64,000 nucleotides of DNA from Idiomarina fontislapidosi (lineage in GTDB: Bacteria > Pseudomonadota > Gammaproteobacteria > Enterobacterales > Alteromonadaceae): NCBI RefSeq assembly GCF_003226255.1, contig NZ_QJST01000005.1, forward strand, positions 62,001 through 126,000. The letters are read 5' to 3'. This document shows positions 8,369 to 41,470 of the stretch, one piece after another. Numbering within the stretch: position 1 is the stretch's first letter; every line of letters starts with the position of its first letter. The notes under the pieces were generated by a model that searched no databases, was not told the origin of the DNA, and was given only the letters and a program-made list of their open reading frames with translations. Made by a program: the position numbers and the translations under genes.

Positions 8369-8422
8369 GATTGCCTCCAGGCGATGTTAGCTAAAATTGT
8401 TTCATTATCTTGGTTAATTTCT

Positions 8423-8449
8423 GTATCGGCGGTTACATAGTAACCTTTA
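8423..8449 (-). promoter_or_regulatory. Sigma-28 promoter of the upstream flagellin gene
   Basis: The minus strand reads TAAAGGTT, 11 bases, GCCGATAC. The end of the -35 element plus spacer form the palindrome GGTTAC-TAT-GTAACC. It lies about 55 bases before the ATG, immediately downstream of flgL. Confidence 0.88.
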
Positions 8450-8466
8450 ATATTTTTTGAAAATTT

Positions 8467-24781: not shown

Positions 24782-24842
24782 GGTCGGCGTCGCTGGAAAG
24801 CGGTTGTTAACTCTGGCATAATTCGCGGCTGTATCTACGGCT

Positions 24843-24919
24843 GTCCCCGTAGCTCAGCAGGATAGAGCAGCCGCCTCCTAAGCGGCAGGTCGCAGGTTCG
24901 ACTCCTGCCGGGGACGCCA
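24843..24919 (+). tRNA. tRNA-Arg (anticodon CCT)
   Basis: A 77-base cloverleaf with acceptor arms GTCCCCG and CGGGGAC, anticodon stem GCCGC/GCGGC enclosing the loop CTCCTAA (anticodon CCT), T arm GCAGG-TTCGACT-CCTGC, and an encoded CCA end. It reads AGG codons. It is convergent with the following minus-strand gene, whose stop is 4 bases away. CATAAT about 25 bases upstream could be its -10 element. Confidence 0.95.
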
Positions 24920-24922
24920 GTA

Positions 24923-26530
24923 CTAACGTCGGTTTAGAAATTCGATTAAAGGCTCAAGCCGCATGGGCGTTGCTTCAAGAAAGCCTTGCATCACATCAGC
25001 GTGCAGCTGCTGAACCATTGCTTTTTCGGATGCCACTTCGACACCCTCTGCCACGATGTTTAAGCCCAGTTCATGTGCCATACCAATAATACCGCGTACA
25101 ATCGCTTGGTTTGCGTTATTAGTATCAATTTTACGGATGAAACTACGATCGAGTTTTACATCAGTAATAGGCATTTGAGTGAGGTAACGTAAATTCGAAA
25201 ACCCGGTACCAAAATCATCCAACGCAATCGCTATGCCCATATCCGTGAGTTTGTCGAGCGTACTGACCGCCGCCTGTGCATTGCGTAACATCATCGACTC
25301 GGTAATCTCGAGTTTGATATCTGATGGTGCAATTCCGGTATCATCTATGACTTTTTTGAGCTGCTCGATGAAATCAGTACGGGTAATGTGCACTGTCGAT
25401 ACATTGACAGAAATCCGCGCGCCCGTCGCCAGCAGAGGTTTTAATTTTTGCCAATCACTAAAGGCTTGGCGCATAATCCAATAACTCAAGGGAATAATCT
25501 GACCCGAGCTCTCTAGTATTGGAATAAATTCGCCAGGTGATAATCCCTCAATCTCAGGGTGACGCCAGCGCACCAAGGCTTCTAAGCCATAGACAGTATT
25601 CGATTCTAAACAAATTTGAGGTTGATAAACTAAATGAAACTGATCACGGTGAATGCCCTTTTGCACTGAATTACGAATTAATAATGCGCGGTTCACCTCG
25701 TCATTTAGTGCTTTATCAAACCATTGAAACGTGTTCTTACCAGCGCGCTTTGCCTCAAACATTGCAATATCAGCTTGCTGTATCATCACCTCGGCACGGT
25801 TCATACGCTCTTTGCAATATGTCACACCCGCGCTTGCGGTAATATAGATATCGGTACTATCAATTTTATAGGGGCGCGCCACGTCGTCGAGGATACGTTG
25901 TGTGACCATCGCCGCATCTTGGCGCGTCTCTAGTCCTGTCAGGATCATCAAAAACTCATCACCGCTTAGGCGGGTTAATGTATCTGAATTACGTAATTGA
26001 TTACGAATACGACCTGCAACCACCTGCAACAGTTTGTCACCCATCTCGTGACCCAGGCTATCATTGATCGCTTTAAACCCATCTAAGTCTAAAAACACCA
26101 CGGCGGTAAGACTGGTGTCACAATCCTCTGATAAACAATGACGCTGTAACCGCATAATAAACTGCATGCGGTTAGGTAGACCCGTTAATGGATCGTGCTG
26201 CGATAAAAAGGGTAACTGCTCGGTACCGCTCGGTTTCATGTTGAACGGATGCAGATAAACGATATAGTGCTTGCAGTCGTCATCGATAATGGTAATAGCG
26301 CAGTAATATACGGGTCGGGCGCCCTCTTCAAACGCTTGAAATGAGCTAGAAAAAAACTCTTTATCGCCCGCCGGCAATTGTATCGCGAGCTTGTTGCCTA
26401 ACTCAGATTGGTTCGTTAGTAACGCTTTGGCACCTTGATTCGCGTACGTGATCGCACAATTACTATCGACAATAACGATAGCAATGCGACTTTTATCAAA
26501 TATTTCATAACGCGCACAGGTATGTTGCAT
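24923..26530 (-). CDS. PAS-GGDEF-EAL signalling protein (cyclic-di-GMP turnover)
   Basis: Cytoplasmic protein of 535 aa without membrane segments. A PAS domain (about 10-115) precedes a GGDEF domain (about 125-285), with SGDEF in place of GGDEF, and an EAL domain (about 295-535). The EAL part keeps EALVRWRHP, DDFGTGFSNL, KLDRSFI and VAEGVE, so phosphodiesterase activity looks intact. SGDEF is often still active in cyclases, so the net direction cannot be told from sequence. Placement next to flagellar genes suggests a role in motility-biofilm switching, which is inference. Confidence 0.9.
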   Translation of the reverse strand: MQHTCARYEIFDKSRIAIVIVDSNCAITYANQGAKALLTNQSELGNKLAIQLPAGDKEFFSSSFQAFEEGARPVYYCAITIIDDDCKHYIVYLHPFNMKPSGTEQLPFLSQHDPLTGLPNRMQFIMRLQRHCLSEDCDTSLTAVVFLDLDGFKAINDSLGHEMGDKLLQVVAGRIRNQLRNSDTLTRLSGDEFLMILTGLETRQDAAMVTQRILDDVARPYKIDSTDIYITASAGVTYCKERMNRAEVMIQQADIAMFEAKRAGKNTFQWFDKALNDEVNRALLIRNSVQKGIHRDQFHLVYQPQICLESNTVYGLEALVRWRHPEIEGLSPGEFIPILESSGQIIPLSYWIMRQAFSDWQKLKPLLATGARISVNVSTVHITRTDFIEQLKKVIDDTGIAPSDIKLEITESMMLRNAQAAVSTLDKLTDMGIAIALDDFGTGFSNLRYLTQMPITDVKLDRSFIRKIDTNNANQAIVRGIIGMAHELGLNIVAEGVEVASEKAMVQQLHADVMQGFLEATPMRLEPLIEFLNRR

Positions 26531-26964: not shown

Positions 26965-27747
26965 TCAACGTTTAAAAGGCAGTATTAGGAGTGACCAAAA
27001 TGGCGTATTGCGTTTTTCTTCACGGAATTCACTGAGTCCGATATCCACGTGGTCAGAGCCAGCGGCGGCGCGGTCGGTATAGCTACTGAATAGCCAGTCC
27101 CACCACACCACACTAAAACCATAGTTGCTATTTGTCTCAGCTTTAACACTACTGTGATGAATCCGGTGCAATTCTTGGGTAATGAGCACGCGCCGAACAA
27201 CCGTCTCAAGCTTCGCAGGTAACTGAACGTTGCCGTGATTAAAGAGTGAGCATGCGTTTAAAACAATCTCGAAAAACAATACGGCGACAGCAGGCACACC
27301 CAACAAAATAATAGCGAGCGCTTTAATACCTAAACTAAGCACCATTTCAATGGGGTGAAAACGCACGCCTGTGGTCACATCAAAGTCAGGGTCGGCGTGG
27401 TGGACGCGGTGCAAGCGCCATAACCACGGCACTTGGTGAAACATGCGGTGCTGCCAATAGAGTACGAGATCGAGTACCACCATACTTAGAATAACCGCAA
27501 GCCATAGCGGCAACTCAAACTGATTAAACAGCCCCCACGTATGTTCTGTGCTCCACAAAGCAATCCCTGTCAGCCCAAGCGGCGCAACCAAACGCATTAA
27601 CACACTGGAGCTGATAATCAGTCCAAGGTGACTGCGCCAACGGCGCCACCGACTGACACGCTGTTGCCGTTTCGGATTTGCCGCCTCCCACCTCAACATC
27701 AATGCCAGTATCGCGACAAAAATGCCTAATCGAATCCATGCTTCCAT
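26965..27747 (-). CDS. Sterol desaturase / fatty acid hydroxylase family membrane protein
   Basis: Membrane di-iron enzyme family that hydroxylates or desaturates lipid chains; the substrate here is unknown. The 260-residue protein has about four hydrophobic segments and the histidine clusters HRMFH, LHRVHH, and later LHRIHH that bind the two irons. Last gene of the tight run from 36.8 kb, 4 bases after the phosphatidyltransferase gene. That neighbour, and not the family name, points to a membrane lipid as substrate; a sterol is unlikely in this kind of bacterium. Confidence 0.85.
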   Translation of the reverse strand: MEAWIRLGIFVAILALMLRWEAANPKRQQRVSRWRRWRSHLGLIISSSVLMRLVAPLGLTGIALWSTEHTWGLFNQFELPLWLAVILSMVVLDLVLYWQHRMFHQVPWLWRLHRVHHADPDFDVTTGVRFHPIEMVLSLGIKALAIILLGVPAVAVLFFEIVLNACSLFNHGNVQLPAKLETVVRRVLITQELHRIHHSSVKAETNSNYGFSVVWWDWLFSSYTDRAAAGSDHVDIGLSEFREEKRNTPFWSLLILPFKR

Positions 27748-27751
27748 CGCT

Positions 27752-28366
27752 TTAGTTGTCCGCTTTTAAGGTATTAAACCCTGCCCAAATACGCGTTGCC
27801 GTTGTAACCCAGCACACCGTACCGAATAGCCAGGCAATCATGACAAAATGCTGTGGTAACAAACACAACAGTATGAACACCGCAAAGGTTTCAAAGCCCT
27901 CTGCCAGACCGCCCATGTAATACATGGATTTATTGGGGTAATGCGGGTTGTTTAATCCGCGCTTTGATGCCTGAACAGCAAACGCTAAAAAGCTCGTACC
28001 TGTCCCAACAAAAGATAGCATCAAAAACAAGCCAGCCAGCAAGTGTTCATGCGGGCTGCTTAGAATAAATCCAACAACCACCGCCTGATAAAAAATAAAG
28101 TCTAATACAATATCCAAAAAGCCGCCTGCATCGGTGGTTCGCGTGCGCCGAGCGACGGCACCATCGAGTCCATCCGCAAGTCGATTTAGCAGAATCGCAA
28201 TAAGTGCCAGCTCGAACGCGCCAGCCGCTAACAGAGGTACGGCTAATAGACCCAACGCAAACCCTACAAGAGTCACCTGATTGGCGGTCACCGCTCGATT
28301 AACAAGTAACTCAGCTGGCTTATCCAGTAATTTGTGTAGCGGCGGAATGAGATACCGATCAATCAT
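27752..28366 (-). CDS. CDP-alcohol phosphatidyltransferase family protein (YnjF-like)
   Basis: Integral membrane enzyme family that transfers a phosphatidyl or similar group from a CDP-linked donor to an alcohol. The 204-residue protein shows the catalytic pattern LADGLDGAVARR followed by GGFLDIVLDF, with all the metal-binding aspartates. About six hydrophobic segments follow. In E. coli ynjF, of the same family, sits beside ynjBCD, and the same pairing occurs here: its start overlaps the ATPase gene by 8 bases. Donor and acceptor are unknown. Confidence 0.88.
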   Translation of the reverse strand: MIDRYLIPPLHKLLDKPAELLVNRAVTANQVTLVGFALGLLAVPLLAAGAFELALIAILLNRLADGLDGAVARRTRTTDAGGFLDIVLDFIFYQAVVVGFILSSPHEHLLAGLFLMLSFVGTGTSFLAFAVQASKRGLNNPHYPNKSMYYMGGLAEGFETFAVFILLCLLPQHFVMIAWLFGTVCWVTTATRIWAGFNTLKADN

Positions 28367-28982
28367 AATAATAGTGCTCTAAATTAACGACTTCGCCCGG
28401 CGCATCGGCTGGATCATGAGTCACCAGCATGGCAGGCATCTGTGCATCCGCCAACTTAGACCATGTAAACTCACGTACGCTTGTTCTTAATTTTACGTCG
28501 AGTGCAGAGAAGGGTTCATCCAGCAGTATACTTTTTGGTGACGCGGCTAAACTTCGCAATAGAGCAATGCGCGCACGCTGGCCGCCACTTAATTCAGCCG
28601 GGTACGCATCGCCGTACTCCGATAAGCCCACCGAATTAAGTTGCTCGGCGACCCAAGCTTGTCTATCCGCTGATTGTGCGGTTCGCGCAAAAAGTAAATT
28701 TTGCTGCACAGTCATATGCGGAAACAAATCCGCCTGTTGTGTTACTAAGCCGATATTGCGCTGCTCAATCGGTCGTTGCGTTAAATCGACGCCATTTAGG
28801 CTCAGTTCACCCGCAATGGCGACGTTGGGTTGCGGCACACCCAGCACCCATTGCAACAAACTGGATTTACCAATACCACTGGCTCCCGTTAGCGTCAGCA
28901 CTTGTCCGGGTGCCACCGACAGTTTGGGAATCACCAGTTGGTGGTGTTTGAACACCATGGTCAAATGATTAATTTCGAGCAC
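28359..28982 (-). CDS. ABC transporter ATP-binding protein, YnjD-like
   Basis: Energises the importer encoded with the next two genes upstream. The 207-residue protein has Walker A GASGIGKSS, a Q-loop in VTQQADLFP, signature LSGGQRARIAL, Walker B SILLDEPFSAL and the switch histidine in VTHD; all are intact. It is at the short end for an importer ATPase and lacks the C-terminal regulatory extension of iron or sulfate types. The start overlaps the permease gene by 14 bases. Confidence 0.92.
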   Translation of the reverse strand: MLEINHLTMVFKHHQLVIPKLSVAPGQVLTLTGASGIGKSSLLQWVLGVPQPNVAIAGELSLNGVDLTQRPIEQRNIGLVTQQADLFPHMTVQQNLLFARTAQSADRQAWVAEQLNSVGLSEYGDAYPAELSGGQRARIALLRSLAASPKSILLDEPFSALDVKLRTSVREFTWSKLADAQMPAMLVTHDPADAPGEVVNLEHYYYD

Positions 28983-30567
28983 GTGTTACTCCTAGCGCCA
29001 CCATAAATATTATCCACACACTGACCCACTGCATCAGAGCATACACGCTTGCTAAACGCCAATCACCGCCGGAGGCGATACTCACCGCTTCGGTCGTAAG
29101 CGTAGGATGGGTCACAGGCGCCAACCATTGCGTCGGTAAGTACTGTGCCACGCTAATTGAGAACGCCATCGCCCACGCCAAGGCTAGTGGCCGCTTTAAC
29201 ATCGGGGCAAGTACTCTAAACCAAGCCGCCCAAGGTCCATACCCCAAACTACGCGCTTGCCAGAGCCACCGTCTAGGATACGCTAAATAAGCGCCGTGCA
29301 AGGTTAAGTAAGCATAGGGGAAGCAAAACACTGTGTGCGACCATAACAGCCACACAAAACTGTTATCAGGTCCAACCTGCCGTTGCCAGCCAAGCACCAA
29401 TACCAGTTGTGGAATGATCAACATGATCAACCAAGCGGCATTGAGCTTGCTTTGTTGTCGCTGAGCTTGCAACTCTAAAAGAATAACCGCCGAAAGCCAT
29501 GCAAGGGTGGCGCTGAACACCGCCAGTGTCCATGTGTTATAAAGTAAAGGCGCAATGTAAGGCCACTCCGAAAGCCAGCGTTCCCATTGCCACCCTTGTG
29601 GCCATAACGCGGGATAAAACCACCCTTGCTGGCCCGACTGCAAAATCAAACTGGTAAGCACCGCTAGCGCTAATAAAGTCCAAAACCAGGGCTTGCTCGA
29701 GGCATTACCACCTGTGCCGCCGGACTGCGAGCGCCGCCCCGTTATTGCACACCGACCCAGCGCCCTTTGCAACAGCCACTCTAAACCGCGCAATAACAGC
29801 AAGCTGATGAATGCCAACAGCACTAAGAGTAACGCCCCCCAAGCGACCCAGTCGTTATCTCCGGCGCTAAATTGCCAGTTCAACTCAAACACCTGATGCG
29901 CCAGCAGTGCGGGCGCGTTGGGTCCCACCAACAACGGAATATCCACCACCGAAACGGTGTAAATTGCGATGATATACAACGGGAGTCGCAGTGGTTTAAG
30001 TAACGCGGGTACCACAATCAGCCACCAAAACCGGCGTTGGCTGTAGCCTAATGCAAGCGCCTGTTGCTGCCAGCGTGCAATCGGCATTTGCCGTATATTC
30101 GCCTGTGCCATCAGCAACAAAAACGGAAGCTCTTTAAGAATCAACACCACCAACAACGTCAAGGTGCTCTTCGCCGAGAGCCAACTCGACTGCACCGGTC
30201 CTTGCCAAGCTGGCAATAGCGCATCAACTAAGCGCACAAGCCAACCAGAAGGACTGACAAGCCATAATAAGCCAATAGCAAAGGCGACGTGCGGCACCGC
30301 AATAAAACTGGCCCAGGTAGCGTTCAGGTGGCGTCCACGGGAACCTGCCAGTGCCGCGAATAAAACCACGACGCTAGTCAGTACGGTCACCAGCAAGGTA
30401 AGCCAAGCACTCTCGCCTAAGCCCTCCCACGCACTACCAATTGACGCGTTAAGCGGCGTTGTTGTCACATGCCAAGCGATCACCACCAACGGCACAATGA
30501 TCCACAGTAATGCGAGCCCAGCGCGCGTCAACCGATTCATGGTTAACGTGGGTAACGTTGTTGCCAT
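28969..30567 (-). CDS. ABC transporter permease, double-length, YnjC-like
   Basis: 532-residue inner-membrane protein with two permease halves in one chain (about 50-270 and 320-530), each with several hydrophobic segments and a cytoplasmic loop of the EAA type (for example ARSLGYGPWAAWFRVLAP in the second half and ALALGYSQRRFWWLIVVP in the first). This two-in-one layout is that of ferric-iron, thiamine and YnjC permeases. The ATG at 30567 overlaps the binding-protein gene by 25 bases; another ATG at 30540, two bases after that gene's stop, is equally possible. Confidence 0.88.
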   Translation of the reverse strand: MATTLPTLTMNRLTRAGLALLWIIVPLVVIAWHVTTTPLNASIGSAWEGLGESAWLTLLVTVLTSVVVLFAALAGSRGRHLNATWASFIAVPHVAFAIGLLWLVSPSGWLVRLVDALLPAWQGPVQSSWLSAKSTLTLLVVLILKELPFLLLMAQANIRQMPIARWQQQALALGYSQRRFWWLIVVPALLKPLRLPLYIIAIYTVSVVDIPLLVGPNAPALLAHQVFELNWQFSAGDNDWVAWGALLLVLLAFISLLLLRGLEWLLQRALGRCAITGRRSQSGGTGGNASSKPWFWTLLALAVLTSLILQSGQQGWFYPALWPQGWQWERWLSEWPYIAPLLYNTWTLAVFSATLAWLSAVILLELQAQRQQSKLNAAWLIMLIIPQLVLVLGWQRQVGPDNSFVWLLWSHTVFCFPYAYLTLHGAYLAYPRRWLWQARSLGYGPWAAWFRVLAPMLKRPLALAWAMAFSISVAQYLPTQWLAPVTHPTLTTEAVSIASGGDWRLASVYALMQWVSVWIIFMVALGVTRARN

Positions 30568-31628
30568 TGCTGTTCAAGGTAGCTCTGCCAACTGGCATGA
30601 AACTCGGTAGCCACAGGCAGTAGAGGCGGCATATCGGCAAGCTCAAGATCCAGAACAGTGGGGTCACCCCAGCCAGACAAGTCGGCTTTTTTGCGTTGCG
30701 CCGTTTCAGACAAGAAAAAGCGAATCACGCGTTGCGCGGCTTCTGCATGCTGACTGGTTGTAGGCACGGCTAAGTAGTGGCTGTTGGTAATCGCACCCTC
30801 GCCGAGTGTCACGCGCTTGGTGCCTTGCGGCACGCGTGCTTGATTAACCAACGTTTTCACTTCGTTGGGGTTAAACGAGAGCGCGATATCTAGCTGTTGG
30901 TTAGCGAACCAATTAAGCTGCTGCGCTGCACTCGACGGAAAGTTTTCGCCCCCTTGCCATAACAAGGGTTGCAACTCATCCAAGTAAGTCCACAACGGCG
31001 CTGTCAGCTTTTCCGCATCGACAGCGTCTACTGGTTGCCTGAAGGCGGTATCTTGCTCAGACAGCGACAGCAACAAGGACTTTAAAAATGTCGTCCCGTG
31101 AAACTCCGGCGGCTTTGGATAGGTCATGCGCCCCGGGTGTTGGGCCGCGTACTCAAGTAGCTCATTGGCGCTGACTTGATCACCGGCGATACAGCTCTGG
31201 CAGGTCAACAAATAAAACTGCCCGACTCCCCACGGTACTTCCAAACCTTCAATCGGCTCACCAAAGTCACTGCGCCAATCTAAGTCATCATTCAATGTGG
31301 TGTCTAAATCGAGCTCGGCAACAACCGCACGCAACCGATCCGCGGCTTTGAGTGCATGAAAGTTCTCGCCATTAATCCACACTAAGTCAGCGTTGCTTTG
31401 TCCATCAACCAGTTGTTTAACCACCTCGGCGATATCAGCCACTTTCACATGGTGTAATTGAATCCCTTCTGGCTGCAGCTCCTTTGCGGCCCAACGTATA
31501 TAGTCATTAATCGCCGGGTTCCCGCCCCATGCGTAAAAATATACGGGTGTTGGCTTATCCTGTGCCGAACTCGGCACGGAAAAAACACTGACCACTATCG
31601 CTGTTAGCAGTAAAAACAGATATCTCAT
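30543..31628 (-). CDS. ABC transporter substrate-binding protein, YnjB-like
   Basis: Periplasmic binding protein of 361 aa. MRYLFLLLTAIVV begins a signal peptide ending near SSA-Q. Mature features include PVYFYAWGGNPAINDYIRWA at the N-terminus and ADLVWINGENFHALKAAD, as in the YnjB family of extracellular binding proteins. This ATG overlaps the upstream stop as ATGA; longer in-frame starts would bury the signal peptide. The ligand is unknown: the wider fold group binds iron, thiamine or polyamines, and no diagnostic residues can be named from sequence. Confidence 0.88.
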   Translation of the reverse strand: MRYLFLLLTAIVVSVFSVPSSAQDKPTPVYFYAWGGNPAINDYIRWAAKELQPEGIQLHHVKVADIAEVVKQLVDGQSNADLVWINGENFHALKAADRLRAVVAELDLDTTLNDDLDWRSDFGEPIEGLEVPWGVGQFYLLTCQSCIAGDQVSANELLEYAAQHPGRMTYPKPPEFHGTTFLKSLLLSLSEQDTAFRQPVDAVDAEKLTAPLWTYLDELQPLLWQGGENFPSSAAQQLNWFANQQLDIALSFNPNEVKTLVNQARVPQGTKRVTLGEGAITNSHYLAVPTTSQHAEAAQRVIRFFLSETAQRKKADLSGWGDPTVLDLELADMPPLLPVATEFHASWQSYLEQQWQQRYPR

Positions 31629-33766
31629 GAACGTAACCATCGATGCAGCTTTTCGACCCACTTTAACAGTTTTTCGGGAGCATGCGCGCGCTTCCACTCA
31701 CCGGCAGCGTATTTATTGGCTTCTGCGAGTGTCGGATAACTGTGGATGGTACCCAAAATCTTATTGAGTCCAATACCGTGCTTCATGGCTAAAACAAACT
31801 CGGCCAACAGTTCGCCTGCCTGCGGACCAACAATATTAACACCCAGGATCGTATCTTTACCGGGTTTGGTCAGCACTTTGACACGCCCATTCGCTTGGCC
31901 ATCGGCAATAGCTCGGTCTAATTCGGCGATGTCATAACAGGTGGTTTCATAGTCCACTTGCTGCGCCTGTGCTTGTTGTTCAGTCAAGCCGACGTTAGCG
32001 ACCTGAGGCGACGTGTAGGTCACCCAAGGAATCACTGAGTAATCAACACGGAATCGTTTAAAGCGTCCGAACAACGCGTTTACGGTTGCGTACCACGCCT
32101 GATGTGAAGCGACATGAGTGAACTGATAAGGCCCAGCGACATCACCGCAGGCATACATGTTCGGCATACTGGTTTGCATAAACTCATCCACCTGGATGGT
32201 TTTGCCATGCTCAATACCCAGCTCCTTAAGACCGAAGCCTTCTAGATTTGCCTGACGCCCTAATGCCAAAAGCACACGATCAGCACCGAGTTGTTGTGCG
32301 CCCTCGTTACCTTCGACATCCAGAAGGATCCCCTGCTCGCTTTGGCTAAACGCCTTGGCTTGAGTCCCTAAATGGAGCTGCACACCATCATCTTGTAAAG
32401 CACGAGCCACATAGTTCGAAGTATCTTCATCCTCATTACTCAGTACGCGGTCCTTCATTTCAACAAGGTGGACTTCACTGCCTAACCGCTGAAAAGCCTG
32501 CGCCATTTCGCAGCCAATCGGTCCGCCGCCTAGGATTAGGAGTCGTTTAGGAAGCTCATCAAGTTGCCACAAATTATCCGAGGTGAGGTAATCGATGGTA
32601 TCGATGCCCGGTAAGTTCGGTACTAATGGGCGCGCGCCTGTCGCGACAACAATGTGTTTGGTGGTTAAACGACGGACTTCGCCTTGCTGCTTAAGCTCAA
32701 CCTCCCATGGCGATACAATCGTTGCTTCTCCCAGCTCGACATTTACACCCAGACCTTGATAGCGCTCGACCGAATCATGGGGTTCAATGCGTTGAATGAC
32801 TTGCTGCACCCGTGCCAATACCTGCTTAAAATCAACACTCACAGGTTGTGCTGTGATCCCCAATTGTTCGCTATGGCGCATATGGTGCACTTGGTTGGCA
32901 ACATGTAACAACGCCTTAGAGGGCACGCACCCTGTATTTAAGCAATCACCGCCCATTTTATCACGTTCAATCAGCGTCACTTTTGCTTTAACGGTCGCAG
33001 CAATGTAAGCACTCACCAACCCCGCTGAACCAGCGCCAATGACGATGAGGTTATTGTCATACTGCTGGGGTCGAGTGAAACCTTTAAACGCCCGACGACG
33101 CTTGATGAGCGTAAGTAACCACTTCGCCAGTAACGGGAACACACCCAACAACACAAACGCCCCGATCAGGTCGGCAGAGACCACATCGCCGACTTGTTCG
33201 ATATCGGCTAACTGTGTGCCCGCGTTCACATAGACTACAGTACCGAGCAGCATGCCGACTTGACTCACCCAATAAAAGGTCCACGTGCGTATTTGCGTAA
33301 GACCCAACGCAAGATTAATCACAAAGAACGGAAAAATGGGCACCAGCCGTAAACTCAGCAGATAAAAGGCGCCGTCCCGTTTTACGCCGCGATTGATGGC
33401 CTCGAGCCGTTGACCAAACTTGCTTTGCACCCAGTCTTTTAATAAAAAGCGTGCACTTAAAAACGCCAGTAAGGCGCCAACAGAGCTTGCAAAGCTCGCC
33501 AGCAATAATCCCCAACCGAGCCCAAAGATAGCCCCCGCACCTAAGGTGAGAATGGTGGCACCGGGGATCGATAACGCGGTCACCAAGACATAAGCAACAA
33601 AGTAAATGGCAAAAGTGAGCAAGGGCTCTGCTTCGAACCATCCATTAACCCGCGCTTGTTGGTCTTTTAACGTATTGAGGTTGAGGTATTGCGTGACATC
33701 AAACACCATCACCGCGGCGATGGCGGCGACGATGACCAGCGCCAACAGAATTTTTTTTACGGACAC
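31625..33766 (-). CDS. TVP38/TMEM64 membrane domain fused to FAD-dependent disulfide oxidoreductase
   Basis: 713 aa in two parts. Residues 1 to about 225 form a DedA-superfamily TVP38/TMEM64 domain with several hydrophobic segments and the conserved ALSIPGATILTLGAGAIFG. Residues 235-713 are a pyridine nucleotide-disulfide oxidoreductase: FAD loop GAGSAGLVSAY, redox pair in GGDCLNTGCVPSKALL, NAD(P) loop LGGGPIGCEMA, and HSYPTLAEA near the C-terminus with the active-site-type histidine and glutamate. It lacks the heavy-metal domain and C-terminal cysteines of mercuric reductase. The start is GTG with AGGAG 6 bases before. It overlaps the binding-protein gene by 4 bases. Confidence 0.9.
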   Translation of the reverse strand: MSVKKILLALVIVAAIAAVMVFDVTQYLNLNTLKDQQARVNGWFEAEPLLTFAIYFVAYVLVTALSIPGATILTLGAGAIFGLGWGLLLASFASSVGALLAFLSARFLLKDWVQSKFGQRLEAINRGVKRDGAFYLLSLRLVPIFPFFVINLALGLTQIRTWTFYWVSQVGMLLGTVVYVNAGTQLADIEQVGDVVSADLIGAFVLLGVFPLLAKWLLTLIKRRRAFKGFTRPQQYDNNLIVIGAGSAGLVSAYIAATVKAKVTLIERDKMGGDCLNTGCVPSKALLHVANQVHHMRHSEQLGITAQPVSVDFKQVLARVQQVIQRIEPHDSVERYQGLGVNVELGEATIVSPWEVELKQQGEVRRLTTKHIVVATGARPLVPNLPGIDTIDYLTSDNLWQLDELPKRLLILGGGPIGCEMAQAFQRLGSEVHLVEMKDRVLSNEDEDTSNYVARALQDDGVQLHLGTQAKAFSQSEQGILLDVEGNEGAQQLGADRVLLALGRQANLEGFGLKELGIEHGKTIQVDEFMQTSMPNMYACGDVAGPYQFTHVASHQAWYATVNALFGRFKRFRVDYSVIPWVTYTSPQVANVGLTEQQAQAQQVDYETTCYDIAELDRAIADGQANGRVKVLTKPGKDTILGVNIVGPQAGELLAEFVLAMKHGIGLNKILGTIHSYPTLAEANKYAAGEWKRAHAPEKLLKWVEKLHRWLRS

Positions 33767-33777
33767 AAAGGCTCCTT

Positions 33778-36078
33778 TTAAAAGCGGTAATCAACAGTGA
33801 GCTGCGCGTGGCGCGGTAACGACGGAAACGCTAAGGTCGAACCAAAGTAGCCGCCCTCAAATACTGGTGACCAATTTTCTTCGTCGGTGACATTAAACAC
33901 ATCGACGCGCGCACTCAACTGTGCGGTCATCTGATAGGTCGCATTCAGGTTCAGCATATATTGATCGCGGATCATCACCGTTTGCAAATAATCAAGCGGG
34001 TAACTTTCGGTGTAATTGGCATCCCCCCCCACGGACCACTGTGGTGTCACCTGCCATCCCGCCACGGCCGATGCCTGCACCTCGGGCACGCCTTGTAAGC
34101 GCTGGTTAGACGCTGGAAATGCCGCAAAGTTAGGTGCGCCGATGCCCGTGCCTTCGATAATATCAGGGCGCGAATCGTCAAATAAATCCGCAATTTGCCG
34201 CGTATCTTGAAAAGCCGCGGAATTATCATAATGTGCATCAAGATAGCTCGCCGCAAGTGTCATCCAAAAGCCGTGTTCATTGCGGTAATTCCACTGCGCT
34301 TCGACCCCCTGCGTGGCAATACCACTATTGGAACCATCTCGATTACGCAAGCTGCGCGTTTGGTCAAACATGACAACGTCGGCATACCAGCGGCTATTGA
34401 CCGGTGCTATTTTGATGCCGAGTTCGTACAACGTATTTTCGGTGGCGAAATTCTGTGAATCGATGACTTGGTTGGCATTCAATACGGTACCGCCCGCCAT
34501 TGAATTTGAGGTCGAATCACTCTCGTACGCCGATGCATAGACCATCACCGCACTCGACAGTTGATACTGAGACGACAAACTCACCGCACTTAACCAATCG
34601 CTATAACTGTCTTCTGCAGCATCAAAGCCCGCAGGTGGTAACGGATCTTTGGCGATGACATCATAATAGTCGATACGTGCGCCCGCAGTAAGTTGCCAAC
34701 GATCGGTTAATGCCAGCTCATGCTGCCCAAACAATCCCCATTGTTGACTTAACGAATCGGTCGTGTCCGACAGAATATAGTCACCAATGCCATCGCCATC
34801 ATTGTCGTAATTGGTTCCTGGTGAAACGAACAGACCTGGACGCAATTGAACGAGCTGAGCTTGCTGCGCCGCAGTTAATGGAATGCGTCGGTTCGCAATC
34901 GGTCCAGTTAAGTCGGATGGGAGGTCAGCTTCGGTACTGAACTGACTGTATCCCAGAACGTCATTCACCCGTACATTAATACCTAAAATAGTGTGATCAT
35001 TGATATGCAATTCAGCGCGGTTCTCAAAGGTATGCGCGCCATCGATGATTTCGACAAAGCTATTTTGGTTTATCCCCTCACGCTCTAGGTATTGATAGTA
35101 AGTACGGTTCACAAAGGTCAGCGTGTCAGACCACTGCTGCTGAAAAGTCGAGTGCAATAACGTTGTTTTAGCGGTGTTAATGTCTGCGGGATCGGTCAAC
35201 ACACGACTGCGATCAATCTCCACTTGTCCGGTCGGACTCACCACGGCAAAGGCGCCTGGCACCGTTGAGCCATTGGGTTGCACACCCTGCCCGGTAATAT
35301 ACAGATTATCGTCAATCAACGCCTGCGTTGGCCGGTTAATACCGGCATTGTCTGTCCACTCGACATCATAGTACTCAAGCCCAATATCCCATTCAGTACG
35401 GCTATTGGGGCTATACCGATAAGCGACAAACACATCGTCGCTGCGGGTCGAGGTAAAATCGTAAAAACTGTCTTGGTCAACGAATTCAGCGCTGACCCGC
35501 AGGGCATGTTTGTCTCGTTTAAGTACCGCATTATGGTCCAACTGCAGTCGATACTGACTCCATTGACCCCACTCGCCACGCACGCGCGAGCGTTCATCAT
35601 CCGTCATCGCCTTTTTCGGCAGCAGATTGACAAAGCCTCCAACGCGTTGCGTCGTCCCAAGCATCACCGGGGGCGCGCCCTTCACCACGGCGATGCCTTC
35701 GATACTATTAAAAGACATCGGTACGCCTAAACCATTATTGCCCGCTTGGCGCCGCATGCCCGCCTCAAACAGCTCACCCAACTGACCCCGCATACTCGGC
35801 AGAGACGGATTGCCAAAGCCTGCTGCGGCAAAACTGTTGGGGGCAAACCGAGCGATATCATGCAGGTCATTAATCGCGGCTTGATCCATCAGCGAACGCG
35901 ATATCATCGTCGCTGAGCGCGGGATTTCCTGCAGTGCATCCGATAGCCCAAATAGCCCTTCGACAGGCTCCTCACTCGGCAAAACGAGGGTTTCGCCTTT
36001 ACCTATTACTTCGATAACTTCGATAGGCTCTTGTGCCAGCGCTGCCACAGGACACAGCATCAACCAAGCGTACTTCAT
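33778..36078 (-). CDS. TonB-dependent siderophore-type receptor
   Basis: Outer-membrane gated channel for a large or scarce ligand. The 766-residue precursor has a short signal peptide ending ALA-Q near residue 15, a TonB-box-like IEVIEVIGKG, a plug domain (about 45-160, with SMRGQLGELFEAGMRR), and a barrel ending in DYRF with terminal aromatic. The plug and barrel resemble ferric-siderophore receptors rather than the long receptors further on in the window. The gene lies 11 bases before the TVP38 fusion gene and 15 after the DUF1499 gene. I see no Fur-box-like palindrome upstream of this run. Confidence 0.88.
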   Translation of the reverse strand: MKYAWLMLCPVAALAQEPIEVIEVIGKGETLVLPSEEPVEGLFGLSDALQEIPRSATMISRSLMDQAAINDLHDIARFAPNSFAAAGFGNPSLPSMRGQLGELFEAGMRRQAGNNGLGVPMSFNSIEGIAVVKGAPPVMLGTTQRVGGFVNLLPKKAMTDDERSRVRGEWGQWSQYRLQLDHNAVLKRDKHALRVSAEFVDQDSFYDFTSTRSDDVFVAYRYSPNSRTEWDIGLEYYDVEWTDNAGINRPTQALIDDNLYITGQGVQPNGSTVPGAFAVVSPTGQVEIDRSRVLTDPADINTAKTTLLHSTFQQQWSDTLTFVNRTYYQYLEREGINQNSFVEIIDGAHTFENRAELHINDHTILGINVRVNDVLGYSQFSTEADLPSDLTGPIANRRIPLTAAQQAQLVQLRPGLFVSPGTNYDNDGDGIGDYILSDTTDSLSQQWGLFGQHELALTDRWQLTAGARIDYYDVIAKDPLPPAGFDAAEDSYSDWLSAVSLSSQYQLSSAVMVYASAYESDSTSNSMAGGTVLNANQVIDSQNFATENTLYELGIKIAPVNSRWYADVVMFDQTRSLRNRDGSNSGIATQGVEAQWNYRNEHGFWMTLAASYLDAHYDNSAAFQDTRQIADLFDDSRPDIIEGTGIGAPNFAAFPASNQRLQGVPEVQASAVAGWQVTPQWSVGGDANYTESYPLDYLQTVMIRDQYMLNLNATYQMTAQLSARVDVFNVTDEENWSPVFEGGYFGSTLAFPSLPRHAQLTVDYRF

Positions 36079-36093
36079 AGTGGAAGTTCCTTG

Positions 36094-36801
36094 TTATAGC
36101 TTGCTTAAGAACGAACGAATACGCTCTGCATTCTTACCCACATCGCTACGACCGACGCGTGATTTACTGCGAATATCGAGCAGTGTTTCATCATTTTGTG
36201 TTTGAATACGAATCACCACGTCGTCTTTAAAACCAAACCAAGTGGTGGTTGCAGTCGCTTCGATACGGTGCTGTTCATCCGACGTGTCGATAATTTCCCA
36301 GCCCATGTTTTCAGCAACGCTCAGCGCTTTTTGATAGAGTTCATCTGGAGACTTCGGTGACACATAAGTGGTGATATCTGGGTACGCTTCTTTTTGCTGT
36401 TTGGCCGTTTCCTCACCCGCATATTCAACGGGGTTCGGCGCATCAGCTCGTAACGGTGCAATAGCCACAAACTCGGGTGGGTTAACCGTATCTGTTGAGA
36501 TATCGTGAATCGCTGGGACCGAGGTTGCCGTCTGATATTGTGCATAGGGTAAATAAAACGCAATAAACGAAGCGACAATGGCTAAAACACTCAGCCCCGC
36601 GCGGGCACCCTTAGGTCGGCGTACGAACAACGCAATAATATTCAGAACACCGGCACCGATGGCGAGATAAACGGCCCAACGCAGTAACGTAAATGCGCCA
36701 CCTAACGTGAGCCATTCGAGTTGGTAAAGCGGACCGGACAACCCAATTAAAACAACAGAGAGTAAACCGAGGAAAATCAAAATAGAGTGCAACGCTTTCA
36801 T
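36094..36801 (-). CDS. DUF1499 domain-containing membrane protein
   Basis: 235 aa. Residues 1-105 contain about three hydrophobic segments (for example ILIFLGLLSVVLIGLSGPLY). The C-terminal half is the DUF1499 domain, with YQKALSVAENMGWEIID, TTTWFGFKDDVVIRI and the ending IRSKSRVGRSDVGKNAERIR, a strongly conserved signature. Function of the family is unknown. It is the first gene of the tightly spaced run to 26.9 kb; TATAAA about 35 bases upstream may be its -10 element. Confidence 0.85.
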   Translation of the reverse strand: MKALHSILIFLGLLSVVLIGLSGPLYQLEWLTLGGAFTLLRWAVYLAIGAGVLNIIALFVRRPKGARAGLSVLAIVASFIAFYLPYAQYQTATSVPAIHDISTDTVNPPEFVAIAPLRADAPNPVEYAGEETAKQQKEAYPDITTYVSPKSPDELYQKALSVAENMGWEIIDTSDEQHRIEATATTTWFGFKDDVVIRIQTQNDETLLDIRSKSRVGRSDVGKNAERIRSFLSKL

Positions 36802-36865: not shown

Positions 36866-37429
36866 TCAACGTATAATGGGTTGTGTATTAGGTTCGTCCA
36901 AACGCTCAATAATTGCACTCGGGATATAAACCGAGCCTACACTGACAACATGCTTACTGTTGATGTCGACTAAGCGTGCATTGGCCAGAACGCCATCACG
37001 ATAGTGACTGTAGGTGCCGACCACCACATGCGTGATAGGTAAAATTTCATCGATCTCAAGGTAATCTCGCGTTAGCGCAAAATCGCCCTGCGGGGTGACA
37101 CGAATAAACTCTGTGGTTTTAAAATCAATAATTGGTAAGTGACGAAATGCCAGTTCACCACGCAGTTGCTCAGACATGACCTGAGCAAAAGGCGTCGCTT
37201 TATTGTAGGCGGACTGCACGCCGACAAAATCGCTGACTGCAATATGGGTTTTTGCCAAATCAATCTGGCTATTACTCACCAATTGTTCAGCGAGCTGCCG
37301 ACTAAAACTATTCGTTGGCGCAGGCGCAGCGCTACCACTACCGAACTCCGCTTTTGCTTCTGGCTTAGGAAGCACCGTACAGCTTGCCAGCACAAATGTC
37401 ATGGCAACCATTAATAATAAGCGCATCAT
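36866..37429 (-). CDS. FlgO-family outer-membrane lipoprotein
   Basis: 187-residue precursor with lipoprotein signal MMRLLLMVAMTFVLASC (lipobox LASC). The rest follows the FlgO pattern: SRQLAEQLVSNSQ, KTHIAVSDFVG, an EQLRGELAFRHLPIIDFKT strand-helix unit, and THVVVGTYSHYRDGVLANAR. FlgO is an outer-membrane component of polar flagella, normally next to flgP. Here the gene is 13 kb away from flgP, in tandem with a second family member (gap 6 bases). Whether it is the working FlgO or a paralogue of other use is open. Confidence 0.75.
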   Translation of the reverse strand: MMRLLLMVAMTFVLASCTVLPKPEAKAEFGSGSAAPAPTNSFSRQLAEQLVSNSQIDLAKTHIAVSDFVGVQSAYNKATPFAQVMSEQLRGELAFRHLPIIDFKTTEFIRVTPQGDFALTRDYLEIDEILPITHVVVGTYSHYRDGVLANARLVDINSKHVVSVGSVYIPSAIIERLDEPNTQPIIR

Positions 37430-37435
37430 TTTCTC

Positions 37436-37987
37436 CTAACGACTTCTTTGTAGGTGCCCATTGACTATCTCTGCACCCTTATTTGTCCAATACAAGTGTT
37501 TGGGCACATAATGGTTTGCCGCCGCTAAAACGGACTGAGAACGACGATCTAACACACGGATACTAAGCATCACACCATCTTCCTCGCGGCTCATTGTACC
37601 AACCAAAACCCAGTCTAATTGGGGATGAAGATTCAGTTTTTCTTTATCATTAGTCAACATGGTGGAACCAGCAGACGTCATCGTCACACCATTTTGTGCA
37701 CGAAAGTCGATAAGCTGGACGTTACGTTCGGCAAGATGGCTGTATAGCAGTTCACTTAATTCATGGCTCACCGCGTAAAGTGCATTTTCGGGAGTCGGTA
37801 GCGCTAAAGTATCCGACATCACCCAACGTGTGATCCCTAGTTGCGCATAACCTTGGTGACCCTGATGCTTGTTCAACTGCAGCACAAGTTGCTGTGACAA
37901 CCTATCGGCAATTTCATCATATGGGCTAATTGAATGCGCTTGCACTGGCACCGCCAACAAGCCGAATAGAATAACCAATATACGCAT
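37436..37987 (-). CDS. FlgO-family exported protein
   Basis: 183-residue precursor with a Sec signal peptide (MRILVILFGLLAVPVQA) but no lipobox cysteine, unlike its neighbour. The mature part shows the same layout: IADRLSQQLVLQLN, GITRWVMSDTLAL, LSELLYSHLAERNVQLIDFR, and LDWVLVGTMSREEDGVMLSI. I chose the ATG at 37987, with AAGAG upstream, because the earlier in-frame GTG would place a basic stretch before the signal peptide. Downstream of a LytTR regulator gene (gap 63). Confidence 0.72.
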   Translation of the reverse strand: MRILVILFGLLAVPVQAHSISPYDEIADRLSQQLVLQLNKHQGHQGYAQLGITRWVMSDTLALPTPENALYAVSHELSELLYSHLAERNVQLIDFRAQNGVTMTSAGSTMLTNDKEKLNLHPQLDWVLVGTMSREEDGVMLSIRVLDRRSQSVLAAANHYVPKHLYWTNKGAEIVNGHLQRSR

Positions 37988-38050
37988 AGGGTGTCTCTTT
38001 ATTAAACGTGATATCACCCTATCGGCTTGTGGCAGAAAAAATTTAGTGTT

Positions 38051-38479
38051 TTAGGTGGTAGACACAATGCCTAAGCTTCGAAAGATACTCTCGCGATAAG
38101 ACTGACCGATGCGCACCTCGTCACCATTGCTGAGCACCAGTAATGTGAGCCGACCCAGTTCACTGGTGATTTCTCTAACGTGGTTTAAATTGACGATCAC
38201 ACTGCGGTGAGCGCGCTGAAACTGTGCAGCACGAAGTGTTTCAGCAACGTTTTTCATGGTATCGCGATGAAGCAGACGTTCTTGCGATGTATGCACCTCA
38301 ACGTAATTGGCAGCCCCTTTGATACAAATAATATCGGTCAGGGGAATAAAAACAATTTTACCTACCATCCTCACGGGAAATACGTTATCCATCTTACGCC
38401 AGCATCCATCAGGCTCATAAAGGTTTAACTCATGATGGTATGGCACCCAGTTCAAGATGGGATATTTTGTGACTAACAC
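38051..38479 (-). CDS. Stand-alone LytTR DNA-binding regulator
   Basis: 142 aa with only one recognisable domain: LytTR at about 35-140, with VFIPLTDIICIKGAANYVEV, the RAHRSVIVNLNHVREI motif, and EVRIGQSYRESIF at the end. No receiver domain or membrane segment precedes it, so it is not a classical response regulator. LytTR proteins bind paired direct repeats. The start is a GTG with AAGGTG upstream; an ATG at codon 30 is the alternative. It stands upstream of the FlgO-family pair and next to the receptor block; a candidate site is at 45488-45521. Confidence 0.85.
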   Translation of the reverse strand: MLVTKYPILNWVPYHHELNLYEPDGCWRKMDNVFPVRMVGKIVFIPLTDIICIKGAANYVEVHTSQERLLHRDTMKNVAETLRAAQFQRAHRSVIVNLNHVREITSELGRLTLLVLSNGDEVRIGQSYRESIFRSLGIVSTT

Positions 38480-38605: not shown

Positions 38606-41470
38606 TTAGAAACGATAGTTAATGCCAGCTGTGATACGACGTCCGCGTAGGTCGTAGTATGCACCTTGGTCATATGCAAACGGAGTTTGCGGTGGGATAC
38701 GGTCAAACATGTTCTGGATGCCCGCACGCACTTGTAGACCTGAAGTAATATCGTAACGAGCAGTCAAACCCCAAGTGGTGTATGACGGAATCTCGTTGTA
38801 GTTATTAACTTCTGGATCCCAATCGCGATCCGCAACTGTTGCATGACGGTAGTTACCGATCAACACAGCAGAGAAGTCACCAATTTTATAATCAGTGATG
38901 AAACGACCTTTCCAACGTGGGCGAGATTGCTCACCAGTTAGCACTTGAAGGTCTTCTTCAAAGCCGGTGCTGTTGAATTGACGCTTGTCTAAGTAGGTAG
39001 AGATAACACGGAAGTTAAATGCACCAAACTCAGTGTCAAAACCGTAAGCCGCTTCGATATCTACACCGGTAGTTTCACTTGATGCAGAGTTAACTGGTTT
39101 TTCGAAATAGTTAACGATTTCGAAGTTGTTCGGATCACGTTCGATTAATGGGCAGAATGCGTTGTCTAAAGTAGACGCTTGATAGCAGTACTGCACAACC
39201 TGAGGACCAGAGAAGTACTGGATCATGTTTTCCATATCGAATGACCAGTAGTCAACTGTAAGACTCAAGTCATCAACAAATGAAGGCGTCCAAACAACAC
39301 CAACAGTGATGTCTTTTGCAACTTCGTTGACCAAGTCTTCGTTACCTACGATGAAGCCAGGCTGAGTAACACCTTTCCACTCATCAGATGGTTCGAAACC
39401 TTCTGGAATACCTTGCGCACGACAGTTTGCGATAATGTTGTCCTGATATTTTGGATTCGCATTATCGATGTTGCTTTGTGAACATGGATCAGAAAGGCTA
39501 CGGAACGTTTGTCCTGGAGGCGCGTACAACTCAGAGATGTTAGGCGCACGAACTGATTTTGAACGGTTCAAACGAACACGGAAGTCGTCGTTTAACGCGT
39601 AGTTCAAACCAATTTTCCATGCATCATCAGTACCAGAAGTCGAGTAGTCCATGTAGCGATATGCAGTTTCTAACGTCAATGACTGAACGTATTCCATATC
39701 AGCTAACAATGGGATTGAGAACTCAGCAGAAGCTTCTGACACATCGAACTCACCCGATAACGGCTGAGACTGGTTGTTAAACAACAAGCCTGCACGCATT
39801 GCTGGATCAGGCAATGTTTCAGAACGCTCTTCACGGTACTCAGCACTGAATGCTGCTGCGATTGGACCTGCCGGCAACATGAACATATCACCCGTTACCG
39901 TTGCACCAAATACAGTTTGACCGATTTCAGCTTCACGGATAGCGTCGGTTGCAACGTAGTCATAAGCTTCTTGGCTATACTGGTTACGACCAAAGATGTT
40001 CAAAGGTAAACAGCCATTTGCACGTGCGATTTCGTCACGACAAACAATTTCACCATCGACTTCTACAGCGTCGATTGCATCGTAGAAACGCTGTTCAAAC
40101 ATTTCGCCGTACCAACGGGTATCTGCTTGTACTTCGCCCACTGTTGCATATGCGTTGTAGAACCAAGTGTCTGTTAATGAGCCTTCAAGGCCTAGAGCGA
40201 TACGTGAAGTCGTACGATCTTGGCTGTACTGACGGTTACCGAAGTCCTGTGCTAGATAATAACCACCAACAACACCGCCTGCAGCATTGATCTCATCTTG
40301 TGCTTCTTGCGGTAAGAACGGGTTATCAGCATAAATTGGTAAGCCACCGAAGAATGCAGGTGAACTCTCACCGTAAGCTTGGCTGTTTGCCCAGTTTACT
40401 TCCATCGTTAACGCGTGGTCACGGTTAATATCGTAGTTGACGATAGTCGAGAAGTTGACTCGGTCAAGCGGTGTTCTCAAGTAACCGTTTTCGATGAAGC
40501 TATAGCCATCACCTTCACCAATATAGTAGTTGGTGTTAGTTGTTCCAGGAGGACCTGCTGGTAATACTTCACCTTCTTCGAATGGACGTAATTGACCATC
40601 GTTAGAGAAAGTATAGTGACCAGTTGGACCAAAGAAGTCTACGGTACGGCTATAGAAGCGCAGTGATTGAGGTGCATACGCATAAACAACACGTGCTGGG
40701 ATACCATCGGTGTTATCGACGTTTTCTGGGTTTGCAATGGTAACAGGACCATTTACATACCAATCACGGTCACTACCTTTGATTTGCTTCTGACGAGCCC
40801 AGCTCAGGTTAGTGATGAACGTTGCTTTACCTTCTTCTGAACCGAAAGTAAATGAAGCGAACTCATCTTCACCACCGCTTTGAGTCGGTTGGCTAGTAGA
40901 AACATCTAGCTCGATACCGTCAAACGATTTCTTAGTGATGATGTTAACAACACCAGCGACTGCGTCAGAACCGTAAACGGCCGATGCACCACCCGTGGTG
41001 ATCTCGATACGCTCGATCATCGCAGTTGGGATGTTGTTTAAGTCAACTGCAGAAGAACCTGGTGAACCACCGATGAAACGGCGACCATTCACAAGTACTA
41101 GCGTACGCTCACTACCTAAGCCACGTAAGTCAGTGTTGTTCAAACCACTGGCGAAGATGGTGTTGTTACTGGTTTCTGGCGAGATACCTACACTTGATGA
41201 AGGTAAGTCATTCAACAAGTCAGCTACGTTGTTAACACCCGCGTCAATTAGCGAGTCGCCTGAGATAACTGTTACAGGCGTCGGTGCTAATTCGCCGATA
41301 CGTTTGATACGAGAACCTGTAACCTCAATGCGCTCTACATCTTCTGCATTTTGGTTTTCAGTGTTGCTCGATTGGTCTTGTGCTAAAGCAGGCACTGCGA
41401 TAAACGCAGAACTTACACCTGCCATTAGAATCGTTCTGATAGAACGAGCCAATAATGACTGTTCGTTCAT
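38606..41470 (-). CDS. TonB-dependent receptor, large (1 of 4)
   Basis: 954-residue outer-membrane receptor. The signal peptide is at about 1-30 (ending ALA-Q), then RIEVTGSRIKRIGE as TonB-box region, a plug at about 60-180 with VLVNGRRFIGGSPG and AVYGSDAVAGVVNI, and a long barrel ending GRRITAGINYRF. Many tyrosines, asparagines and acidic residues in the barrel and the VTGSRIKR box place it with the large receptors of marine Alteromonadales and Xanthomonas, often used for peptide or glycan fragments. The ligand is unknown. Own terminator; GGGGAG before the ATG. Confidence 0.92.
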   Translation of the reverse strand: MNEQSLLARSIRTILMAGVSSAFIAVPALAQDQSSNTENQNAEDVERIEVTGSRIKRIGELAPTPVTVISGDSLIDAGVNNVADLLNDLPSSSVGISPETSNNTIFASGLNNTDLRGLGSERTLVLVNGRRFIGGSPGSSAVDLNNIPTAMIERIEITTGGASAVYGSDAVAGVVNIITKKSFDGIELDVSTSQPTQSGGEDEFASFTFGSEEGKATFITNLSWARQKQIKGSDRDWYVNGPVTIANPENVDNTDGIPARVVYAYAPQSLRFYSRTVDFFGPTGHYTFSNDGQLRPFEEGEVLPAGPPGTTNTNYYIGEGDGYSFIENGYLRTPLDRVNFSTIVNYDINRDHALTMEVNWANSQAYGESSPAFFGGLPIYADNPFLPQEAQDEINAAGGVVGGYYLAQDFGNRQYSQDRTTSRIALGLEGSLTDTWFYNAYATVGEVQADTRWYGEMFEQRFYDAIDAVEVDGEIVCRDEIARANGCLPLNIFGRNQYSQEAYDYVATDAIREAEIGQTVFGATVTGDMFMLPAGPIAAAFSAEYREERSETLPDPAMRAGLLFNNQSQPLSGEFDVSEASAEFSIPLLADMEYVQSLTLETAYRYMDYSTSGTDDAWKIGLNYALNDDFRVRLNRSKSVRAPNISELYAPPGQTFRSLSDPCSQSNIDNANPKYQDNIIANCRAQGIPEGFEPSDEWKGVTQPGFIVGNEDLVNEVAKDITVGVVWTPSFVDDLSLTVDYWSFDMENMIQYFSGPQVVQYCYQASTLDNAFCPLIERDPNNFEIVNYFEKPVNSASSETTGVDIEAAYGFDTEFGAFNFRVISTYLDKRQFNSTGFEEDLQVLTGEQSRPRWKGRFITDYKIGDFSAVLIGNYRHATVADRDWDPEVNNYNEIPSYTTWGLTARYDITSGLQVRAGIQNMFDRIPPQTPFAYDQGAYYDLRGRRITAGINYRF

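Follow-up and report, generated by a model that had tools for sequence, protein, structure and literature searches.

We analysed a 64,000-nucleotide stretch of the Idiomarina fontislapidosi genome (NCBI RefSeq assembly GCF_003226255.1, contig NZ_QJST01000005.1, positions 62,001 to 126,000; hereafter the window), focusing on a run of eight minus-strand genes at 26965-36801 (Table 1). The original prediction had read these genes as a single system joining an outer-to-inner import path to lipid enzymes. The open reading frame (ORF) coordinates agree with its description of genes spaced by at most 15 bases or overlapping: three junctions have gaps of 15, 11 and 4 bases, and the remaining four overlap in the ORF list. 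The true ynjB start is likely the ATG at 31628, overlapping the end of the fusion gene by 4 bases. Pfam and NCBIfam profile scans, the source of the domain labels, returned the same domains as had been named, YnjC being recognised by homology and position. Comparison with other genomes gave good support to the view that seven of the genes (receptor, fusion, YnjB, YnjC, YnjD, transferase and hydroxylase) would form a single conserved system.

Table 1. Genes of the run, listed from its upstream end, with window positions and the basis of each label.
Feature	Position	Strand	Basis
DUF1499 membrane protein	36094..36801	-	PF07386, 93 bits
TonB-dependent outer-membrane receptor	33778..36078	-	PF00593 (80 bits), PF07715
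VTT (TVP38/DedA) membrane domain fused to FAD/NAD(P)H disulfide reductase	31625..33766	-	PF09335, PF07992, PF02852
YnjB-like periplasmic solute-binding protein	30543..31628 (ORF-list start 31697)	-	NF008633
YnjC-like double-length ABC permease	28969..30567	-	homology and position; without Pfam match
YnjD-like ABC ATPase	28359..28982	-	PF00005, 100 bits; follows YnjC in relatives' loci
YnjF-like CDP-alcohol phosphatidyltransferase	27752..28366	-	PF01066, 42.9 bits
Membrane hydroxylase, FA_hydroxylase superfamily	26965..27747	-	PF04116, 106 bits (cut-off 31)

YnjB was detected in 17 of the 19 same-genus genomes and exceeded its cut-off in 133/394 genomes of the order. To compare neighbourhoods, we fetched 60 YnjB loci from the genus and other relatives and 80 named loci, the latter being the best 80 of 576 and therefore leaning towards close YnjB relatives. 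Loci were considered flank-complete if 7.5 kb or more was available on each side of YnjB; 28/140 were dropped for short flanks, leaving 112 (16 same-genus, 39 other and 57 named), among which at least two places were counted twice (L032 = L081, L068 = L107). All seven genes were present at 16/16 same-genus loci and at 33 of the 112 flank-complete loci. The two same-genus genomes devoid of YnjB (G011 and G012) also lacked the fused protein and yielded reductase-only matches. Gene order varied within the genus, with an inverted hydroxylase gene in L031, a DUF1499 gene that was inverted or elsewhere in many loci, and an insert of two genes separating receptor from fusion in five loci. This insert (L021 6549-7080, L024 6510-7041, L025 6573-7104, L029 6537-7068 and L030 6510-7041, in YnjB-oriented coordinates) resembles a Phd/YefM-RelE antitoxin-toxin module, judged by eye and not scanned. 

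The original prediction had held that finding the receptor and DUF1499 genes elsewhere in close relatives would speak against a single system, and the two genes behaved differently in a family sample of 98 genomes from 52 genera. YnjB was found in 25 genomes and the receptor in 23, each of which also carried YnjB, in every case within 10 kb, so that the receptor, never seen away from YnjB, is a firm member of the unit. Its co-occurrence with YnjB was marked (p 2e-20; here and below, p values are from plain Fisher tests that ignore kinship). The hydroxylase (p 2e-16) occurred in 22 genomes, 21 of them with YnjB (20 within 10 kb, and G720 with the gene on another contig), the exception being G412. 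The DUF1499 gene (p 4e-14) occurred in 20 genomes, 19 of which had YnjB, lying within 10 kb in nine and within 20 kb in 11; because in the other 8/19 the distance exceeded 20 kb or the gene was on a different contig, it tracks YnjB across genomes without being a steady operon member. The single-system claim thus held for seven genes, with DUF1499 more loosely attached.

Beyond the genus, the parts were retained unequally. Among the 39 other flank-complete loci, the receptor was present in 15, the fusion in 24, the transferase in 32 and the hydroxylase in 16; the corresponding counts among the 57 named loci were 4, 21, 49 and 10, the 49 loci with transferase and YnjBCD spanning Vibrio to Rhodoferax. 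From these counts, YnjBCD and the transferase emerge as a wide core with the fusion as a frequent partner, and the receptor and hydroxylase as an extension of marine lineages that is also found in Gilvimarinus and Aliiglaciecola. A quick tree built from 97 fusion proteins, in which 6 of the 16 same-genus loci were kept and the label "none" may partly reflect short contigs, showed YnjB-linked and arsenic-linked copies intermixed: parsimony needed five switches between these two contexts, and well-supported branches require the YnjB label to have changed at least four times. Since YnjB-linked fusions occupy several positions in the tree, the association of fusion and YnjB arose or was retained more than once. 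In L161, L162 and L180 the fusion gene escaped ORF calling.

Other genes recurred around these loci. A DUF547 gene was present in 26/112 flank-complete loci, mostly between fusion and YnjB, and in genus loci it was inverted and upstream. Radical SAM proteins adjoined the fusion in L188, L190, L192 and L194, from other lineages, the L192 copy being Rv1681-like and below cut-off. In G707 (L210), a radical SAM gene (12810-13898, by eye) lay downstream of YnjBCD in place of the usual partners; this genome gave no hydroxylase match at 1e-40, and a different gene that looks like a hydroxylase of the FA_hydroxylase superfamily (7847-9064; by eye, not scanned) lay about 80 bases before YnjB. FAD proteins resembling TIGR03169 recurred near YnjBCD or the fusion (L132 12493-14778, L151 5378-6523, L037 5216-6346, L049 13591-14646, and also L173, L180 and L197). 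The L132 protein, which carries a fused SelD-like domain, exceeded the cut-off, the L151 copy fell slightly below (306.9 of 310 bits), and a selenium link of these proteins is possible. YnjB was broken into two frames at one locus (L053 9235-10414, genome G024), where YnjC, YnjD and the transferase were still present.

An internal promoter and terminator had also been put forward as signs that the run is split. A simple pattern scan revealed no convincing terminator inside the run and a single minus-strand promoter-like site, within ynjB (31306-31277). Terminator-like sites numbered 18 in the scanned stretch vs 14.9 (standard deviation 4.0) in shuffles, and promoter-like sites 8 vs 12.9, counts that say little either way. 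Because a same-strand FlgO gene ends 64 bases ahead of DUF1499, the transcript start may be further upstream. Together with FlgP-like and LytTR-like regulator genes, both named by eye, FlgO occupies 36866-38479 on the same strand. This group is preceded by a second TonB-dependent receptor (38606-41470), which ends at a strong terminator-like stem detected by pattern scan upstream of the run (38586-38562). The G+C content per kb was 0.50-0.545 across the run (27000-36000) and 0.43-0.49 in the flanking kb of 20000-45000, with the single exception of 24000-24999 (0.517). At Rfam gathering thresholds, the window yielded one tRNA and no riboswitch. Between a divergent DoxX gene and the receptor of some relatives, a GAACGnnCGTTC-like palindrome, perfect in L041 and less so in L045 and L046, looks by eye like a TetR operator.

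The enzymes of the run have conserved catalytic residues. CDP-alcohol phosphatidyltransferases share the motif D(x2)DG(x2)AR(x8)G(x3)D(x3)D; the window transferase carries it (spacing by eye), and its residues D65, D68, G69, A72, R73, G81, D85 and D89 (in the numbering of the window protein, counted from its first residue) are invariant in 26 sequences; its predicted activity is phosphatidyl transfer to an alcohol. In profile searches of solved structures it comes closest to AF2299, to 4mnd, a bifunctional inositol-phosphate enzyme, and to phosphatidylinositol phosphate (PIP) synthases; it is PIP-synthase-like in these alignments, which extend mainly over its catalytic half. Archaetidylinositol phosphate (AIP) and PIP synthases are likewise among its best NCBIfam and PDB relatives, while the scores fall short of the PIP/AIP equivalog cut-offs (60.1 against 180 and 41.2 against 170 bits). 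In the hydroxylase, histidines 100, 104, 113, 116, 117, 131, 171, 194, 197 and 198 are invariant in 15 sequences. Its only NCBIfam match at E <=0.001 is the ornithine lipid hydroxylase OlsE, at 98.3 bits, far under the NF052566 cut-off of 475, and no PDB sequence relative was found at E 0.01. The fusion has an invariant CxxxxC pair (C275, C280) and H675/E682 in 24 sequences.

The explanation that we prefer, and hold only tentatively, is that the run encodes one uptake-and-membrane-modification system in which an imported organic solute feeds the synthesis of an unusual phospholipid and a redox step on thiols is involved. The receptor would carry a scarce organic solute over the outer membrane, and YnjB would pass it on for import through YnjC/YnjD. 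Next, the YnjF-like enzyme would join the phosphatidyl group of CDP-diacylglycerol to the solute or its product, giving the unusual phospholipid, whose head group or lipid the hydroxylase may oxidise. The VTT-reductase might use NAD(P)H to drive a disulfide/thiol step at the membrane, possibly along with lipid flipping. DUF1499 would be an accessory protein, as would DUF547 where relatives carry it. Import feeding membrane chemistry is plausible, and we count in favour of this explanation the seven-gene conservation across loci, the family co-occurrence with YnjB, the joint lack of YnjB and fused protein in G011 and G012, the wide YnjBCD-transferase core, the repeated linkage in the fusion tree, the substitute hydroxylase-like gene of G707 and the invariant catalytic residues of the transferase, hydroxylase and reductase. 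The lipid and redox roles advanced in the original prediction are consistent with the protein families.

Several observations weigh against this explanation. The lipid step is predicted from family membership. The receptor is uncommon beyond the family sample (4/57 flank-complete named loci), and some YnjBCD loci, e.g. L210, L151 and L197, show no transferase. Pseudidiomarina loci (L085-L087 and L116) hold YnjBCD, the transferase and an inverted hydroxylase, receptor and fusion being absent from the part shown. In genome G412 (L209) the fusion, hydroxylase and DUF1499 genes are grouped while importer, receptor and transferase are missing, which implies that parts can work apart. Finally, the window transferase lies on the same strand as the importer, whereas Escherichia coli ynjF lies on the opposite one.

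An alternative that we consider unlikely makes the solute a sulfur compound or oxidised thiol, which the VTT-reductase would reduce or process, and gives the lipid enzymes a secondary place. The reductase half is nearest to lipoamide dehydrogenase, and three thiol-type proteins recur: the CxxxxC fusion, a YnjA-like AhpD protein and a YnjE rhodanese. A YnjA-like gene adjoins the fusion in Aeromonas and Photobacterium loci, and E. coli has both YnjA and YnjE. This alternative does not account for the transferase, which accompanies YnjBCD more constantly than any other partner, and the window run has no YdjY, YnjA or YnjE, all three present in the E. coli set (the rest of the genome was not searched for them). 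The AF2 (AlphaFold 2) model of the fusion had a pLDDT (predicted local distance difference test) of 83.2, the VTT half being lower with block means of 52-86 over residues 1-220. The reductase half matched lipoamide dehydrogenase and mercuric reductase (MerA) folds, and all 50 PDB matches listed were C-terminal-type reductases. Against the dihydrolipoyl dehydrogenase model TIGR01350 the protein scored 418.2 bits for a cut-off of 408.8; it is VTT-fused, and the run contains no 2-oxoacid complex. An assignment to MerA itself was rejected, with TIGR02053 at 387.9 bits for a cut-off of 454.45 and no C-terminal cysteine pair seen.

Metal uptake, in which the receptor and YnjB would import a ferric or other metal complex for use by the reductase or hydroxylase, appears unlikely. 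The B-C-D order with a double-length permease and an ATPase is that of a YnjBCD importer, YnjB scores 361.3 bits against the NF008633 cut-off of 203, and a YnjC homologue, with weak PotC/ModB similarity, follows YnjB in 54/60 loci. The YnjB AF2 model (pLDDT 92.3) has an FbpA/FutA/ThiB-type fold by Foldseek, and its five best matches are ferric-binding proteins (FutA1, FbpA), but at only about 15% identity. Besides iron binders, the same list includes thiamine, GABA, sugar and polyamine binders, its matches lying at about 10-18% identity, and this spread across binder types at low identity led us to assign no ligand. In sequence searches of the PDB, the receptor matched siderophore receptors only, the ferripyoverdine receptor among them; its TIGR01783 score of 95.5 lies below the cut-off of 223.5, and a strict siderophore receptor was thus rejected. 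Inspection of the genus and family loci by eye, with no matrix scan, noticed no Fur-like box upstream of the receptor. The accessible part of one report links DedA proteins to the uptake of selenite and the extrusion of indium (PMC8679861), which would suit a metal role. Metal uptake also leaves the transferase unexplained.

The arsenosugar neighbourhoods of the fusion suggest a further alternative, which we regard as improbable: YnjBCD would import a ready-made organoarsenical (arsenosugar) or similar selenium compound that the transferase builds into a phospholipid. In a phylum sample of 299 genomes (fusion at E <=1e-200, ArsS at 1e-70), we found the fusion in 45 genomes, ArsS in 113 (112 over cut-off) and YnjB in 31. 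Fusion matches at 1e-100 had been obtained in 71 genomes; of the 26 dropped, 23 aligned only from about residue 200-240 onward (G428 among them, at 54% identity), and the other three (G532, G619 and G621) were distant fused forms with 36-37% identity and an internal stop. Fusion and ArsS were common to 23 genomes and lay within 4 kb in 11, the closest 54 and 69 bases apart; fusion and YnjB were common to 14, within 6 kb in 10; and eight fusion genomes had neither ArsS nor YnjB. Four ArsS genes and one ArsM gene beside the fusion were confirmed over NCBIfam cut-offs, two further ArsM-like genes falling below, and in L151 and L197 YnjBCD and the fusion were grouped with the TIGR04282/TIGR04283 arsenosugar glycosyltransferases. 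ArsS and YnjB were never found together (0/299 genomes), a mutual exclusion that is confounded by phylogeny. All ArsS genomes of the window's class in this sample carried the fusion (8/8), compared with 15/105 elsewhere in the phylum; taken across all 299 genomes, fusion and ArsS were weakly associated (p 0.035). At the eight loci whose ArsS gene was picked up by clustering, neither YnjB nor the transferase lay beside it. Direct arsenosugar synthesis in the genus was rejected, ArsS (TIGR04167) being over cut-off in 0/40 relatives including this genome (best score 20.5 bits), which also counts against scavenging. Its more specific form, even less probable, is that receptor, YnjBCD and VTT-reductase scavenge an algal organometalloid (arsenosugar-like or selenium-containing) that the YnjF-type enzyme turns into a phospholipid, the same VTT-reductase serving ArsS bacteria, which would synthesise the compound on their own. 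If true, scavenging would explain why the fusion keeps company with ArsS (23/45) or YnjB (14/45) and never with both.

That the genes are loose neighbours without joint function is very improbable: DUF1499 is mobile and parts exist alone, but the reading is strongly disfavoured by the family co-occurrence, the fusion tree and the recurrent association across loci. Returning to the uptake-and-membrane-modification system, its importer-transferase core is conserved across lineages from Vibrio to Burkholderiales, and the marine version adds the outer-membrane receptor, hydroxylase and fused reductase. These additions narrow the question to one testable pathway, through the YnjB ligand and the resulting lipid.

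Among known systems, arsenosugar clusters (ArsS, ArsM, TIGR04282 and TIGR04283) can carry the same VTT-reductase fusion together with DUF547, whereas the window run, in a genome without ArsS over cut-off, has an importer and lipid enzymes in place of the arsenosugar genes; the shared fusion ties an orphan importer to arsenosugar gene neighbourhoods. In the open-access literature we found no paper joining TVP38 with arsenosugar, the sole paper on TVP38 and arsenic concerning, in its accessible part, indium (PMC8679861), nor any function reported for YnjBCD or YnjF (most subscription journals being outside the search). The window fusion has the same domain pair as a published COG0398-oxidoreductase fusion; the available sections of that study give pyridine nucleotide-disulfide oxidoreductase as the commonest fusion partner of COG0398 DedA proteins, and propose possible phospholipid scrambling and an aerobic link for COG0398 proteins, stating no role for a ynj-type operon (PMC10127716).

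The closest parallel is found in E. coli K-12, where the genes run ydjX, ydjY, ydjZ, ynjA, ynjB, ynjC, ynjD and ynjE, followed by a convergent ynjF; this is a wider set than the ynjBCD-ynjF proximity stated in the original prediction. Part of one source lists ydjXYZ-ynjABCD and, separately, ynjE as directly activated by FNR (PMC3688515), and the accessible text of a BaeR study gives ynjA up 1.6-fold and ynjB 1.4-fold, an effect that its authors consider perhaps indirect (PMC2731931). Neither source, nor the COG0398 study, names a substrate of the importer in its accessible text. The E. coli run is without a fused reductase, receptor or hydroxylase, and its importer is annotated only as putative. 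Both sets bring together a VTT protein (ydjX and ydjZ both encoding DedA/VTT proteins in E. coli), YnjBCD and a YnjF-type gene. Judged by gene content, the window run is an expanded relative of the E. coli ydjXYZ-ynjABCDE/ynjF set.

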